A DNA stretch of 64,000 bases from Minwuiaceae bacterium (GTDB lineage Bacteria > Pseudomonadota > Alphaproteobacteria > Minwuiales > Minwuiaceae). Within the stretch, counting starts at the first letter, position 1; each line of letters starts with the position of its first letter. Below, in pieces: positions 3,495 through 32,384 of this stretch. The stretch is from contig JANQEE010000049.1 in the NCBI GenBank assembly GCA_028278525.1, positions 186,001-250,000 of the forward strand, written 5' to 3'. The notes under the pieces were generated by a model that was given only the letters and a program-made list of their open reading frames with translations, made no database searches and was not told the origin of the DNA. Made by a program: the position numbers and the translations under genes.

Positions 3495-5804
3495 GTGTCT
3501 CGGACGCTACGCCGAATATGGGCGGTTTGTGCCGTCGCGTCGATTATGGCGTTTGGGACCTTCGCAGTGCCGCAGGTCGGGCTGGGCGTCCAAACAGCCA
3601 GCGCCCAGAGCGTTGCGTCGATCGCTGAGGTTCTCGTCGAAGGCAATCAACGGATCGAGGCGGACACCGTCCGCTCCTACATGACGGTGCGCGCCGGCGA
3701 TCCGTTCGACGCCGCGGAGATCGATAAGTCGTTAAAGGCGCTGTTCGCCACCGGCCTGTTCGCCGATGTCACCATTCGGCGCCAGGGCACCTCCCTGGTC
3801 GTCAGCGTGGTCGAAAACCCGATCATCAACCGCCTGGCGTTCGAAGGGAACCGCAAGATTTCGGACGATACCCTGGACTCGGAAGTCCAGCTTCGGCCGC
3901 GCGTGGTCTACACCCGCGCGCGGGTACAGTCGGACGTGCAGCGGATCATCGAGATTTACCGCCGCAGCGGGCGGTTCGCGGCGACGGTCGAACCGAAAGT
4001 GATCCAGCTTCCCCAGAACCGCGTCGACCTGGTGTTCGAGATCAACGAGGGCGAGGTGACGGAGATCCGCAAGATCCGGTTCATCGGCAACCGCGCGTTC
4101 TCCGACAGCCGGTTGCGGCGCGAGACCTCGACCAAGGAAGCCGTCTGGTACCGTTTCCTCACCGTCGACGATACCTACGATCCCGACCGCCTGACACTGG
4201 ATCGCGAGTTGTTGCGGAAGTTCTATCTGTCGAACGGCTACGCCGATTTCCGCGTTGTCTCGGCGGTGGCGGAACTGACCCCCAACCGGGAAGAGTTTTT
4301 CGTCACTTTCACTTTGGACGAGGGCGAGGTTTATACGTTCGGCGAGATCGATTTGGAGACGGAGTTAAAGGACCTCGACCCCGATCAATTGCGGCGTCTG
4401 CTCCAGATGAACACGGGCGATACCTACAACGCCGATCTGGTCGAGAACACGATCGAGGACCTGACCTTCGAGCTTGGCCGTCTCGGTTACGCCTTCGTCG
4501 ATATCCGCCCGCGCGTCGACCGCGACCGCGATAACAACATCATCGACCTGACCTTCGAGATTAACGAGGGGCCGCGCGTCTATGTCGAACGGATCGATAT
4601 CGTCGGCAATGTGCGCACCCTCGACAAGGTCGTGCGGCGGGAATTCCGGTTGGTCGAGGGAGATGCCTTCAATACCGCCAAGCTGCGCCGGTCGCGGTCG
4701 AGGATCCGTGGGCTGGCGTTCTTCGAACGGGTCGAAATAACCAACGAGCAAGGCAGCGCGCCGGACAAAACCGTCATCAAGGTGGAGGTCGCGGAAAAGC
4801 CGACCGGCGAGTTGAGCCTGGGTGCAGGCTTCTCGACGACGGAAACGATCATCGGCGACGTAGCGATCCGCGAACGCAACCTGCTTGGCCGCGGCCAGGA
4901 TCTGCGCCTGGCTTTCAGCCTGTCCGCGGTGCGCCGCCAGATCGACTTAAGCTTTACCGAACCGTATTTCCTGGATAAGCCGATCTCCGCTGGTGTCGAC
5001 GTGTTCAACACGTCGACGGATCTTCAGGACCGGTCGTCGTTCGACCGTGACTCCACCGGCGGGTCGCTTCGCATGGGTTTCGATATTACAGAGCGGCTGC
5101 GCCAGACCCTCAACTACACCTTCCGCCGGGACAACATCAGCGACGTCGACGAAGACGCGTCGCGCTTCATTCGCGATCAGGAAGGCTCGACAACCTCTTC
5201 GTCCGTTGGCTACCGCCTGCGCTACGACCGCCGCGATGACCCGATCGAGCCGACCAGCGGCTTCGTCGTAACCCTGAACCAGGATTTCGCCGGCATCGGC
5301 GGCAGCGTCCGCAACATCCGGTCGACGCTGAAATATGCCCATTATTTCGAACTGTTCGACAAGGTGGTCGCCAGCATCGCCCTGAACGAAGGGTATGTGC
5401 TTGGCCTCGGCCAGGACGTTGAGATCAATCAGCGGTTCTTTCTCGGCGGCGATTCCTTTCGTGGATTCGAAAGCGGCGGTGTCGGTCCGCGCGATGTGAC
5501 GACCGACGACTCCCTGGGCGGCAATCTGTTCTATGTCGGCACGGCGGAACTCCAATTTCCCCTGGGTCTGCCGGAGGAGTTTGGTATTCTTGGCCGAATT
5601 TTTACGGAAGCCGGCAGCCTGGTGGACGTGGACGAGGAGGGGCCCGAAGTGTTCGACGAGGGCAGTGTCCGCGTATCCAGCGGCGTGGGCTTGTCCTGGC
5701 GTTCGCCGTTCGGGCCGATCCGGCTGGATCTGGCCCAACCCTGGCTCAAGGAAGACGAAGATGAGATCGAGATCTTCCGATTCAGTTTTGGAACGAGGTT
5801 CTAG
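3495..5804 (+). CDS. bamA: Outer membrane protein assembly factor BamA
   Basis: Central subunit of the BAM machine that folds beta-barrels into the outer membrane. The GTG start at 3495 is chosen because the next in-frame ATG (3549) would remove the basic start of the signal peptide; cleavage is expected after QTASAQS, about residue 39. Residues 40-400 hold POTRA repeats, visible as recurring EGN, GNRAFSD and VGNVRTLDKVVRREF segments. Residues 430-769 are the 16-strand barrel, containing the conserved FRGFES loop motif (usually VRGF) and ending in a C-terminal Phe, the outer-membrane sorting signal. The length of 769 is typical. Confidence 0.96.
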   Translation: MSRTLRRIWAVCAVASIMAFGTFAVPQVGLGVQTASAQSVASIAEVLVEGNQRIEADTVRSYMTVRAGDPFDAAEIDKSLKALFATGLFADVTIRRQGTSLVVSVVENPIINRLAFEGNRKISDDTLDSEVQLRPRVVYTRARVQSDVQRIIEIYRRSGRFAATVEPKVIQLPQNRVDLVFEINEGEVTEIRKIRFIGNRAFSDSRLRRETSTKEAVWYRFLTVDDTYDPDRLTLDRELLRKFYLSNGYADFRVVSAVAELTPNREEFFVTFTLDEGEVYTFGEIDLETELKDLDPDQLRRLLQMNTGDTYNADLVENTIEDLTFELGRLGYAFVDIRPRVDRDRDNNIIDLTFEINEGPRVYVERIDIVGNVRTLDKVVRREFRLVEGDAFNTAKLRRSRSRIRGLAFFERVEITNEQGSAPDKTVIKVEVAEKPTGELSLGAGFSTTETIIGDVAIRERNLLGRGQDLRLAFSLSAVRRQIDLSFTEPYFLDKPISAGVDVFNTSTDLQDRSSFDRDSTGGSLRMGFDITERLRQTLNYTFRRDNISDVDEDASRFIRDQEGSTTSSSVGYRLRYDRRDDPIEPTSGFVVTLNQDFAGIGGSVRNIRSTLKYAHYFELFDKVVASIALNEGYVLGLGQDVEINQRFFLGGDSFRGFESGGVGPRDVTTDDSLGGNLFYVGTAELQFPLGLPEEFGILGRIFTEAGSLVDVDEEGPEVFDEGSVRVSSGVGLSWRSPFGPIRLDLAQPWLKEDEDEIEIFRFSFGTRF

Positions 5805-29237: not shown

Positions 29238-29683
29238 CATTGTGGTTGTGCTTCAATCCTGAGCCTGTCGAAGGACGGATAGCCGCTCCCTGCCTCCCCG
29301 ATACCCTTCATATTTTCTACACAATCCTTAATGCAGCGGCGCATTTTCCTTATGCGGTTTCTCGGGTTCTCGTCCCGCGGACCAGGCCGTAAACCGAGGG
29401 GTATCGGGAACGTGCCGGCCGGCGTTAACCATGTCAGGTAAGGCCGGGCCGGCCATCGACCCAAACCGAGAGGAGGGCTACGCCCATGCGCCTCGGCGGT
29501 GACGGCCGCTCGTTTTGGCGGTGGCGGTGTTCGTCGGTATCGCGGCGGACGATTCGCGCGACGCGAATACGAGACGTGCCGCTTTCGGTTTCACTCGCGC
29601 ACTGTCGGCGCTTTTTACAGATTGGCGGTGGGCGTTTTGCGCGGATCTCGGTAAGCCGTTGGCGGCAAATGAATTTGCAGGTC

Positions 29684-29699
29684 CGGCACGGATGTTGCT
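29684..29699 (+). promoter_or_regulatory. Probable sigma-54 promoter of the PEP-CTERM cluster
   Basis: CGGCACGGATGTTGCT matches the RpoN consensus TGGCACG-N4-TTGC(A/T) at every conserved base except the first T. The invariant GG (-24) and GC (-12) are correctly spaced. It sits about 115 bases before the first PEP-CTERM start codon. PEP-CTERM genes in other bacteria are known to be controlled by the PrsK/PrsR system acting with RpoN, which fits; neither regulator is in this window. Confidence 0.65.
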
Positions 29700-29812
29700 T
29701 GGCATAAAACATCATGCTGATTCCAGATACGTATTAAGTAATATTTCAGAACTTGATGCGTGAACCTGTCGCTGTGACGCAGCGCGAACAGCGAAAGAGA
29801 AGGGAACTGCGA

Positions 29813-30493
29813 ATGTTTTTGACGAAACTGAAACCGCTCTTCCTGGCGGCCGCGGTTTCCGCCTTCGCCGGTATGGCGACGGAGGCGTCGGCCGCCGTTG
29901 TCCACAACGTTCTTGGCGGCCAGTTGGTCGGCGCCCAGAACGTCGACGTCAATGGCACCTTGTACGATGTCTCGTTCCAGGACGGCAGTTGCGCCGCGTT
30001 GTTCGATGGCTGCGACAACGCGGCTTCGGATTTCGCATTCACCACGCTGGGCGATGCGCTGGCGGCCGCGCAGGCATTGCTGGATCAGGTCTTGCTCGAC
30101 AAGCCGGAAGGCGCGTTCGACACCGATCCGTCCACTATCGCGGGCTGCGGCAGCGCGCTCGTCTGTCTGGCCTTCATCCCCTACGACCCGACCGACCCCG
30201 GTCCGTTTTCGCTCGATGCGACGGCGGCCCAAAACAACGATGATCCGGCGTTGGACGTCGCCTTGAGCATCGGCGGCGCATCGCCTGACCTGGACTTCGG
30301 ATCGATCGAAAATTTCACCTGGGCTGTTTTCACCGCCACCGGCGTGGACCTGCCGCCGGCCGACGTTCCGGCGCCGGGCGCGTTATTGCTGCTGGGCTTC
30401 GCCCTGGCCGGGCTCGGCATCGCCAACCGGAGGGCTCGCGCGACCATCGCAACGGCCGAAGCGGTCATCAGTGCGACAGAAGCTCAAACCTGA
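29813..30493 (+). CDS. PEP-CTERM sorting-domain exoprotein, paralogue A
   Basis: 226 residues: signal peptide FLTKLKPLFLAAAVSAFAG (cleavage near EASAA); a domain beginning GGQLVGAQNVDVNGTLYDVS with cysteines in GSCAALFDGCD; a variable middle; and the C-terminal sorting signal VPAPGALLLLGFALAGLGIA followed by NRRARA. Exosortase is expected to cut at this signal. Unlike its neighbours it carries about 18 extra residues after the basic tail. ATG 29813 is preferred (AAGGGA upstream). First gene of a four-gene run; related to the genes at 31102 and 31764. Function unknown, probably a surface or matrix protein. Confidence 0.85.
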   Translation: MFLTKLKPLFLAAAVSAFAGMATEASAAVVHNVLGGQLVGAQNVDVNGTLYDVSFQDGSCAALFDGCDNAASDFAFTTLGDALAAAQALLDQVLLDKPEGAFDTDPSTIAGCGSALVCLAFIPYDPTDPGPFSLDATAAQNNDDPALDVALSIGGASPDLDFGSIENFTWAVFTATGVDLPPADVPAPGALLLLGFALAGLGIANRRARATIATAEAVISATEAQT

Positions 30494-30512
30494 AATGAGA
30501 AGGAACGGAACC

Positions 30513-31067
30513 ATGTATCGAAACATACGGCGGACCCTGTTCGCCATGGCTGGCCTGGCCGCCCTTGGGATTGCGGCGCCGGCCAATGCGACCCTGATCG
30601 GCGACGATATCGATTTGACCGTCTCGTTAGAGGGCGCGTCCGACAAAATGTTCGCGGCGACGGTGGGGAACGGCATCGAATTCGATCTCGGCGATATCAC
30701 CATCGATGTCGGTGCCTCCCGTATCGATTTCGCGATCGTCGACCCCGACGCCGCCTTCGCAGCAGGCGTTACTTATGCGCTGACCGACCTGGATTGGTTC
30801 GGCATGGCGGGCGAGATCACGGATGCAGTCCTGATCATGTTCCAAGAGGTAGACAGCCAAATTGAATTCACGGCCGATAGCGTGACGCTGGAACGGGGCG
30901 ACTTCAGTCTCGTCGAGCTCGAGGCGGGTCTTTTCGCTTCGATAGAGCTTGTGACGCAACATTCCGGCGGCGGCGGCGACGTTCCCGGACCCGGCGCGTT
31001 GGCCCTATTTGCCGTCGGCCTCGCCGGACTCGGCCTCGCGACCGGAAGAGGTCGCTCGGCTGCTTAG
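30513..31067 (+). CDS. PEP-CTERM sorting-domain exoprotein, unrelated N-terminal domain
   Basis: 184 residues from ATG 30513 (AAGGAACGG upstream). Signal peptide RTLFAMAGLAALGIAAPANA, then an acidic, beta-rich domain without cysteine (IGDDIDLTVSLEG, GNGIEFDLGDITIDVGASRI). A Gly-rich linker GGGGD and the sorting signal VPGPGALALFAVGLAGLGLA with the end GRGRSAA follow. The body does not resemble the three paralogues around it. It lies 19 bases after the first gene and 34 before the next, so it is co-transcribed. Confidence 0.82.
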   Translation: MYRNIRRTLFAMAGLAALGIAAPANATLIGDDIDLTVSLEGASDKMFAATVGNGIEFDLGDITIDVGASRIDFAIVDPDAAFAAGVTYALTDLDWFGMAGEITDAVLIMFQEVDSQIEFTADSVTLERGDFSLVELEAGLFASIELVTQHSGGGGDVPGPGALALFAVGLAGLGLATGRGRSAA

Positions 31068-31101
31068 GAACCTCAACATCCGAACGAAGAGGAGTAGCGT
31101 C

Positions 31102-31749
31102 GTGTTTATCCCAAGACTGAAACCGTTTGTCCTTGCTACGGCCATCGTGGCGTCCGTGGGCCTAATGACTGAGTCCCGCGCCGCAGTGCTGCTCATCGAT
31201 GATACTGGCCAGCTCACCGGCGCCCAGGGCGTCGACGTCAACGGCACGCTCTACGACGTCACCTTCGCTGACGGTACCTGCGCCGGCCTGTTCGACGGCT
31301 GCGACGACGCCGGCGACTTCACCTTCAACAACCAGGCAGATGTCCTTGCCGCGGCGCAGGCACTGCTCGATCAGGTGTTTGTCAACACCGTGTCGGGTGC
31401 CTTCGACGACGACACCGGCCTTACCAACGGCTGCGAGGGCGGCGGAAATTGCTTTACGCACATTCCGTTTGCGATCGCTGATTTCGAGGCCAATGTGCCT
31501 ACCGCTATGGTGATAAACGCCCCAATCGAGGCGGATGACGCCGCTTTGGCAAATATGGTCCCCGAAAATACTCCGACGGAACTCTTTCCACAGCAGAACT
31601 ACGCGCTGTTCGCGGCCACCGGACCCGGCGGCCCGGACACCCCGGGCGCGGACGTGCCGGCGCCTTCCGCTCTGCTGCTGTTCGCGGCCGGCCTGGCAGG
31701 TCTGGCCGCGGCCGGACGCCGCCACCGCCGGGAACGAAACCTGGACTGA
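31102..31749 (+). CDS. PEP-CTERM sorting-domain exoprotein, paralogue B
   Basis: 215 residues from GTG 31102 (AAGAGGAG upstream); longer frames would overlap the previous gene. Signal peptide ending ESRAA; domain TGQLTGAQGVDVNGTLYDVT with GTCAGLFDGCDD and AAQALLDQVFVNTVSG; a divergent middle with two further cysteines; and the ending GADVPAPSALLLFAAGLAGL with a basic tail RRHRRERN. The first third and the last 100 bases are very close to paralogue C, the centre is not. Confidence 0.85.
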   Translation: MFIPRLKPFVLATAIVASVGLMTESRAAVLLIDDTGQLTGAQGVDVNGTLYDVTFADGTCAGLFDGCDDAGDFTFNNQADVLAAAQALLDQVFVNTVSGAFDDDTGLTNGCEGGGNCFTHIPFAIADFEANVPTAMVINAPIEADDAALANMVPENTPTELFPQQNYALFAATGPGGPDTPGADVPAPSALLLFAAGLAGLAAAGRRHRRERNLD

Positions 31750-31763
31750 AGGGATAATTGGAA

Positions 31764-32384
31764 ATGCGTTTGACGAAACTGAAGCCGCTTTTTCTTGCCG
31801 CCACGGTCGCGGCGTTCGCCGGCATGGCGGCGGAGGCACGTGCCGCGGTGCTGCTCGTCGATGATACCGGCCAGCTCACTGGCGCCCAGGACGTCGACGT
31901 CAACGGCACGCTCTACGACGTAACCTTTGCCGACGGCTCCTGTGTCGGCCTCTTCGACGGCTGCGATCAGGCCGCAGATTTCGCCTTCAACAGCAAGGCC
32001 GATGCATTCGACGCGAGTTTAGCGTTGTTGGAACAGGTATTCGTGAACACCGAGCAAGGCAGTTTCGGCGACGATCCCACCCTTATCAGCGGCTGCACGG
32101 ATGCCTTACTCTGCCGAGCGTTTGTTCCTTTTGCGGTATCCGACGTCGTTAACGTCGCTGTCTCCGGTGTCTCGGTTTCGGAGGAGGGACCTATCTTCGC
32201 CATTCTTGAAATAGACGTAGATCCCCTCGCGCCTACCTCCGAACGCGAAATCTACGCGCTGTTCGCCGCCGCCGGGCCCGGCGGCCCGGACACCCCGGGC
32301 GCGGACGTGCCGGCGCCTTCCGCCCTGTTGCTGTTCGCGGCCGGCCTGGCAGGTCTGGCCGCGGCCGGACGCCGCCGGCGTTAG
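31764..32384 (+). CDS. PEP-CTERM sorting-domain exoprotein, paralogue C
   Basis: 206 residues from ATG 31764 (RLTKLKPLFLAATVAAFAG, nearly the same signal peptide as paralogue A). Domain TGQLTGAQDVDVNGTLYDVT, GSCVGLFDGCDQAADFAF, then a variable segment with CTDALLCRAF, and the sorting signal GADVPAPSALLLFAAGLAGL ending GRRRR. The gene follows paralogue B by 14 bases and closes the array. Surface location is inferred from the sorting signal; the role is unknown. Confidence 0.85.
   Translation: MRLTKLKPLFLAATVAAFAGMAAEARAAVLLVDDTGQLTGAQDVDVNGTLYDVTFADGSCVGLFDGCDQAADFAFNSKADAFDASLALLEQVFVNTEQGSFGDDPTLISGCTDALLCRAFVPFAVSDVVNVAVSGVSVSEEGPIFAILEIDVDPLAPTSEREIYALFAAAGPGGPDTPGADVPAPSALLLFAAGLAGLAAAGRRRR

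Follow-up and report, generated by a model that had tools for sequence, protein, structure and literature searches.

Three genes of a Minwuiaceae genome, lying in a 64,000-nt window (the whole stretch of DNA that was analysed), are by their sequences members of an uncatalogued PEP-CTERM protein family. What this adds to the knowledge of such proteins is that, between syntenic orthologues, half of a folded domain appears to have been replaced as one segment. We put the probability of the whole scheme, in which exopolysaccharide-linked surface or matrix proteins have their face exchanged by block recombination, at about one half.

An uncatalogued domain in a PEP-CTERM array

The array reads A-D-B-C, with all genes on the forward strand. 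Gene A (29813-30493) encodes 226 aa with a putative signal peptide, a VDVxGTLYDV domain and a PEP-CTERM signal, whereas B (31102-31749, GTG start) and C (31764-32384) encode 215 and 206 aa, respectively. These three had been described as tandem paralogues and their kinship is clear, since query P0002 matches A at E=2e-49 and B at E=2e-69, but the array is not uninterrupted: gene D (30513-31067, forward strand, 184 aa), an unrelated PEP-CTERM protein of the LIGDD...LVTQH family, sits between A and B. In Denitrobaculum, Pelagibius and two Kiloniellaceae genomes, homologues of D lie immediately before an A/B/C-family gene or share an array with it, and this adjacency suggests that the two families form a functional pair.

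The same query retrieves 8 further copies elsewhere in the genome at E<=4e-22, which excludes chance. The family thus counts 11 copies at six places (six contigs), in tandem on contigs C35 (three copies), C60, C54 and C69 and singly on C27 and C70. Among GTDB genomes, 44 family loci were obtained from Nitrospirota, Myxococcota and the Alpha-, Beta- and Gammaproteobacteria, along with one labelled Deltaproteobacteria. An alignment query was needed for these loci, the single-sequence search of genome contigs having found no relatives. The protein family was absent from all eight genomes examined from the same bacterial family, Minwuiaceae (0/8), and phage and plasmid records gave no match to it.

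As the original prediction had it, the GAQxVDVNGTLYDV...LFDGCD domain is common to A, B and C, each of which also carries a PEP-CTERM signal, and this domain has no name. No Pfam or NCBIfam model covers it, scans with Pfam, NCBIfam and PHROGs give a name to the tail alone, and the mature domains of A, B and C, taken by themselves, match nothing in NCBIfam up to E=10. The profile-type search proposed for the shared domain extends the family to the genomic copies and multi-phylum relatives described above and brings in no named family; the family profile found nothing among PDB sequences.

The conserved part covers ~95 residues, extending beyond LFDGCD to take in a second pair of cysteines and a P-Y/F motif (29897-30181 in A, including both cysteine pairs; 31186-31467 in B; 31848-32129 in C; all forward strand). 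Its consensus is GxLxGAxxVDVxGTLYDVxFxDGTCxxLFxGCDxxSDFxF...ALLDQVFxD..GxFDxxPxLTxGCx(5)CxxxxPY, after which come a weakly conserved stretch, in which one Asn and one Asp are almost invariant (N in 52/58 and D in 50/58 members of the family alignment), then (F/Y)AVF and the tail. The middles of the three proteins do differ, but because the shared domain continues through the second cysteine pair and P-Y/F, the variable centre amounts to ~40-45 residues and not to the 60-80 first supposed. Nor does cysteine content vary among the centres, as had been claimed: A, B and C each contain four cysteines in all, at corresponding positions (60, 67, 112 and 118 in A; 60, 67, 111 and 117 in B and C). The second pair is missing as a pair in 8/58 members; such joint loss is the pattern expected of a disulfide, and we infer that the cysteines are bonded in this way.

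Structure prediction had been proposed for all three proteins; A and C were modelled with AlphaFold from an input alignment of 48 sequences (mean pLDDT 89.7 and 84.5), each as one small alpha/beta domain with three strands, a helix and then four strands. Since each is predicted as a single domain, the variable centre would be no separate module but would supply two strands, with loops, to the common sheet (in A, 30182-30313, forward strand, where strands are predicted at 134-142 and 149-156, with loops besides). Block means of confidence reach 92-98 over residues 131-170 in the centre of A and are lower, 70-87 over residues 121-160, in that of C. The constant scaffold would then comprise the domain's N-terminal half, with its three strands, helix and both cysteine pairs, together with the final strand and sorting signal, and the exchangeable half-domain would consist of the middle strands and loops. 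Foldseek searches of PDB and BFVD with both models gave no match with E<=0.001. C-type-lectin domains (CD23, Ly49, PLA2R, rhodocetin, intimin tip) recur among the insignificant matches of both; kinship with this fold was not accepted, at E ~1-10, a TM-score of at most 0.42 and no sequence support, and is kept as a lead.

Upstream motifs and sorting signals

A pattern scan upstream of A detected a putative PrsR enhancer site of the motif-1 pattern of PEP-CTERM genes (29603-29619, forward strand, 17 nt, TGTCGGCGCTTTTTACA) and, 65 nt after its TTTACA, a sigma-54 promoter (29683-29700, forward strand, CCGGCACGGATGTTGCTT) with GG at -24 and GC at -12, in the layout TGTCGG-N5-TTTACA, 65 nt, GG-N10-GC. 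This spacer fits the motif-1/motif-2 arrangement of PEP-CTERM genes (mean spacing 62.8, s.d. 10.6; Haft 2006, PMC1569441); the motif pair spans 29603-29700. Genome-wide, 18 exact motif-pair sites occur against 0 for the reversed-pattern control, and PEP-CTERM genes lie downstream of 16 of the 18. Exact sites at C14:1113 and C17:19302 precede lipoprotein-like and hydroxyphenylpyruvate dioxygenase-like genes, named by eye from sequence. Among the family copies, C27, C54 and C69_2 have the pair and C60 and C70 are without it; a family-wide PrsR/sigma-54 promoter was rejected, as 2/45 relatives elsewhere have the pair. The best genome matches to the PrsR and PrsK models (378 and 96 bits) fall below the curated cut-offs of 502.6 and 300, respectively.

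The first gene of the array, A, would be activated through PrsR/sigma-54, the system governing exopolysaccharide-linked PEP-CTERM genes, and the proteins are most likely co-expressed with exopolysaccharide and placed at the surface or in the matrix. In Aquincola, the RpoN-dependent PEP-CTERM protein PepA shifts exopolysaccharide from the soluble to the bound form, into flocs (PMC9850573). PepA of Aquincola/Zoogloea (NF033554, flocculation-associated) resembles the proteins described here as a PEP-CTERM protein under RpoN, and a role in holding exopolysaccharide to the cell is plausible for them too; however, the NF033554 model, whose cut-off is 80 bits, gives A 20.2, B 24.2 and C 11.1, and it finds nothing when the mature domain is searched by itself.

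A signal peptide shared by all three proteins had been expected; those of A and C are alike (82%), whereas that of B differs (39-46%). The 11 genomic copies have a hydrophobic N-terminus with an A-x-A-like site at its end, predicted as a helix in the models of A and C. At the C-terminus, the PEP-CTERM motif scores 24.4 bits in B and 22.9 in C, above the cut-off of 20.7, and 20.5 in A, just under it. No exosortase (TIGR02602, PF09721) was matched in the 98.5% complete assembly, where the gene may lie in a gap. For this reason we call A, B and C PEP-CTERM proteins rather than proven exosortase substrates; in the proposed scheme they would be secreted and C-terminally anchored, with a single small alpha/beta domain, stabilised by disulfides, as their common basis. 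With PEP-CTERM/exosortase substrates (TIGR02595, PF07589) they share the signal-peptide-like hydrophobic N-terminus, the C-terminal PEP-type motif, hydrophobic helix and basic tail, the PrsR/sigma-54 promoter before A and the abundance of paralogues (44 PEP-CTERM matches in the whole genome). They differ by a body domain outside Pfam and NCBIfam and by an assembly in which no exosortase was found. The coexistence of so many PEP-CTERM matches with no TIGR02602 or PF09721 exosortase, and with PrsR and PrsK matches below curated cut-offs, was also noted in this genome.

Probable exchange of the variable centre

The constant-variable-constant design that had been proposed for the array is seen again both within tandem pairs and among syntenic orthologues. 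Between B and C, an independent repeat search found 75% DNA identity over a 300-nt N-part and 96% over a 125-nt end, the repeat that holds the final strand and sorting signal (31599-31723 in B, 32252-32376 in C, forward strand), with nothing matching between; the two centres (31468-31596 and 32130-32249, forward strand) are not alignable. In the tandem pairs C60_1/2 and C54_1/2, N-part and end reach 82-89% nucleotide identity and the centre 33-36%, where alignment is nearly random and synonymous estimates are unreliable. The pS of the ends is 0.13-0.29 in these pairs and 0.15 in the B/C end. Divergence is more even along the gene in the C69 tandem pair. A, B and C themselves appear mosaic, A and C being grouped by the signal peptide and B and C by the body (p=3e-7), although faster change of B's signal peptide alone would look similar. 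For none of the replaced centres could a donor be identified, and no member pair combines a similar centre with a dissimilar N-domain; the DNA of C's centre occurs just once in the genome.

One syntenic locus was compared in four genomes, those of Denitrobaculum (Den), Kiloniellaceae 2-526A_2 (K526), Kiloniellaceae 2B2-119-4 (Kil) and Pelagibius (Pel); the DNA on either side of the gene is for the most part 75-93% identical. Amino-acid identity of the centres is 96% for Den/K526, 67% for Kil/Pel and 22-28% across these pairs, against a baseline of 13.6% for the centres of distant family members. Sliding-window nucleotide identity is 66-100% in the N-part, drops to 33-58% over the centre and rises again to 60-83% along the last strand and the tail. 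At informative sites of Den, Kil and Pel, the Kil+Pel grouping is found 27 times vs 63 for the others in the signal peptide and N-domain, 46 vs 14 in the centre (Fisher p=2e-8) and 13 vs 34 in the end (Fisher p=6e-7); these site patterns, in tests that count linked sites as independent, reject a single history for the gene. The K526 gene has another signal peptide fused to an otherwise Denitrobaculum-like protein. As a control, a divergent single-copy homologue present in three of the four genomes aligns over its full length; the syntenic pair Den_C10/Pel_C3 shows gradual and not block-like divergence.

Diversifying selection, raised as a possibility for the centres, is unsupported at the level of point mutation because pN/pS is below 1 where they align (0.42 and 0.58, the second from very few changes). 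To judge from these comparisons, the centres look replaced as blocks by recombination, with no hypermutation. New variants would be generated when tandem or dispersed copies recombine via their conserved ends, by gene conversion or unequal crossing-over, with the result that the centre is swapped as a block.

Alternative explanations and related systems

Another explanation, possible but in our opinion rather doubtful, is a birth-and-death process with concerted ends, in which tandem copies with old, functionally specialised centres come and go and conversion keeps the signal peptide, N-part and sorting signal uniform; the centre would then be a weakly constrained structure and its diversity would not itself be selected. 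The tandem copies, the strong likeness of their ends at synonymous sites and the pN/pS values of the alignable centres all agree with such a process, as do the copy numbers, which vary among genomes at the syntenic locus, and the frequent duplication and loss of PEP-CTERM genes (Haft 2006, PMC1569441). It is countered by the Denitrobaculum gene, both sides of which map with the right spacing to one Pelagibius copy. As its centre matches neither Pelagibius copy, differential loss of the two known copies is insufficient.

We consider unlikely a static matrix or structural role, with the centre as filler in an ordinary exopolysaccharide-associated protein devoid of recognition. PEP-CTERM proteins are mostly without recognisable function and evolve rapidly (Haft 2006, PMC1569441), and the few anchors kept in the centre are what a structure would keep, but block replacement beside a constant scaffold in four species speaks against this role and the confidence of A's modelled centre argues for a folded segment over filler. 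Programmed rewriting of the centres by a diversity-generating retroelement or silent-cassette switching would share the constant-variable-constant layout, and the weak C-type-lectin-like matches recall retroelement target proteins, yet it is highly improbable and both models were rejected, since there is no template repeat and no nearby reverse transcriptase (the genome's only two are on other contigs), C's centre is single-copy, and centres differ at all bases and in length, not at template adenines.

Pilin, Opa and vls are tandem surface-protein families diversified by recombination. The A/B/C family is similar to them in its constant ends, variable middle and mosaic copies, but no silent cassettes were found for it and the swap concerns half of a folded domain. 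As to its likeness to surface proteins that diversify a binding face, the diversification is retained, in the form of block replacement; we infer that the centre is the binding face, that the location is the surface or matrix and that diversity is useful. The proteins would act as binders in the exopolysaccharide matrix or at the cell surface, the bound target being set by the centre. A broader proposal, speculative and improbable as it stands, is that PEP-CTERM arrays are a recombination-fed repertoire in which a binding half-domain is exchanged en bloc between its constant ends, providing strain-specific cell-cell or matrix recognition in biofilms or flocs.

The function of PEP-CTERM proteins, numerous, fast-evolving and mostly without recognisable domains, is a long-standing question. 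A family whose domain is defined and foldable, with its constant scaffold mapped, an exchangeable half and natural syntenic swaps, offers constructs for testing recognition specificity. Finally, as a minor feature of the syntenic locus, ~1 kb with an unrelated ORF (L045, ~4553-5595) stands right after the family gene of Kiloniellaceae 2B2-119-4 and is absent from Denitrobaculum (L047).
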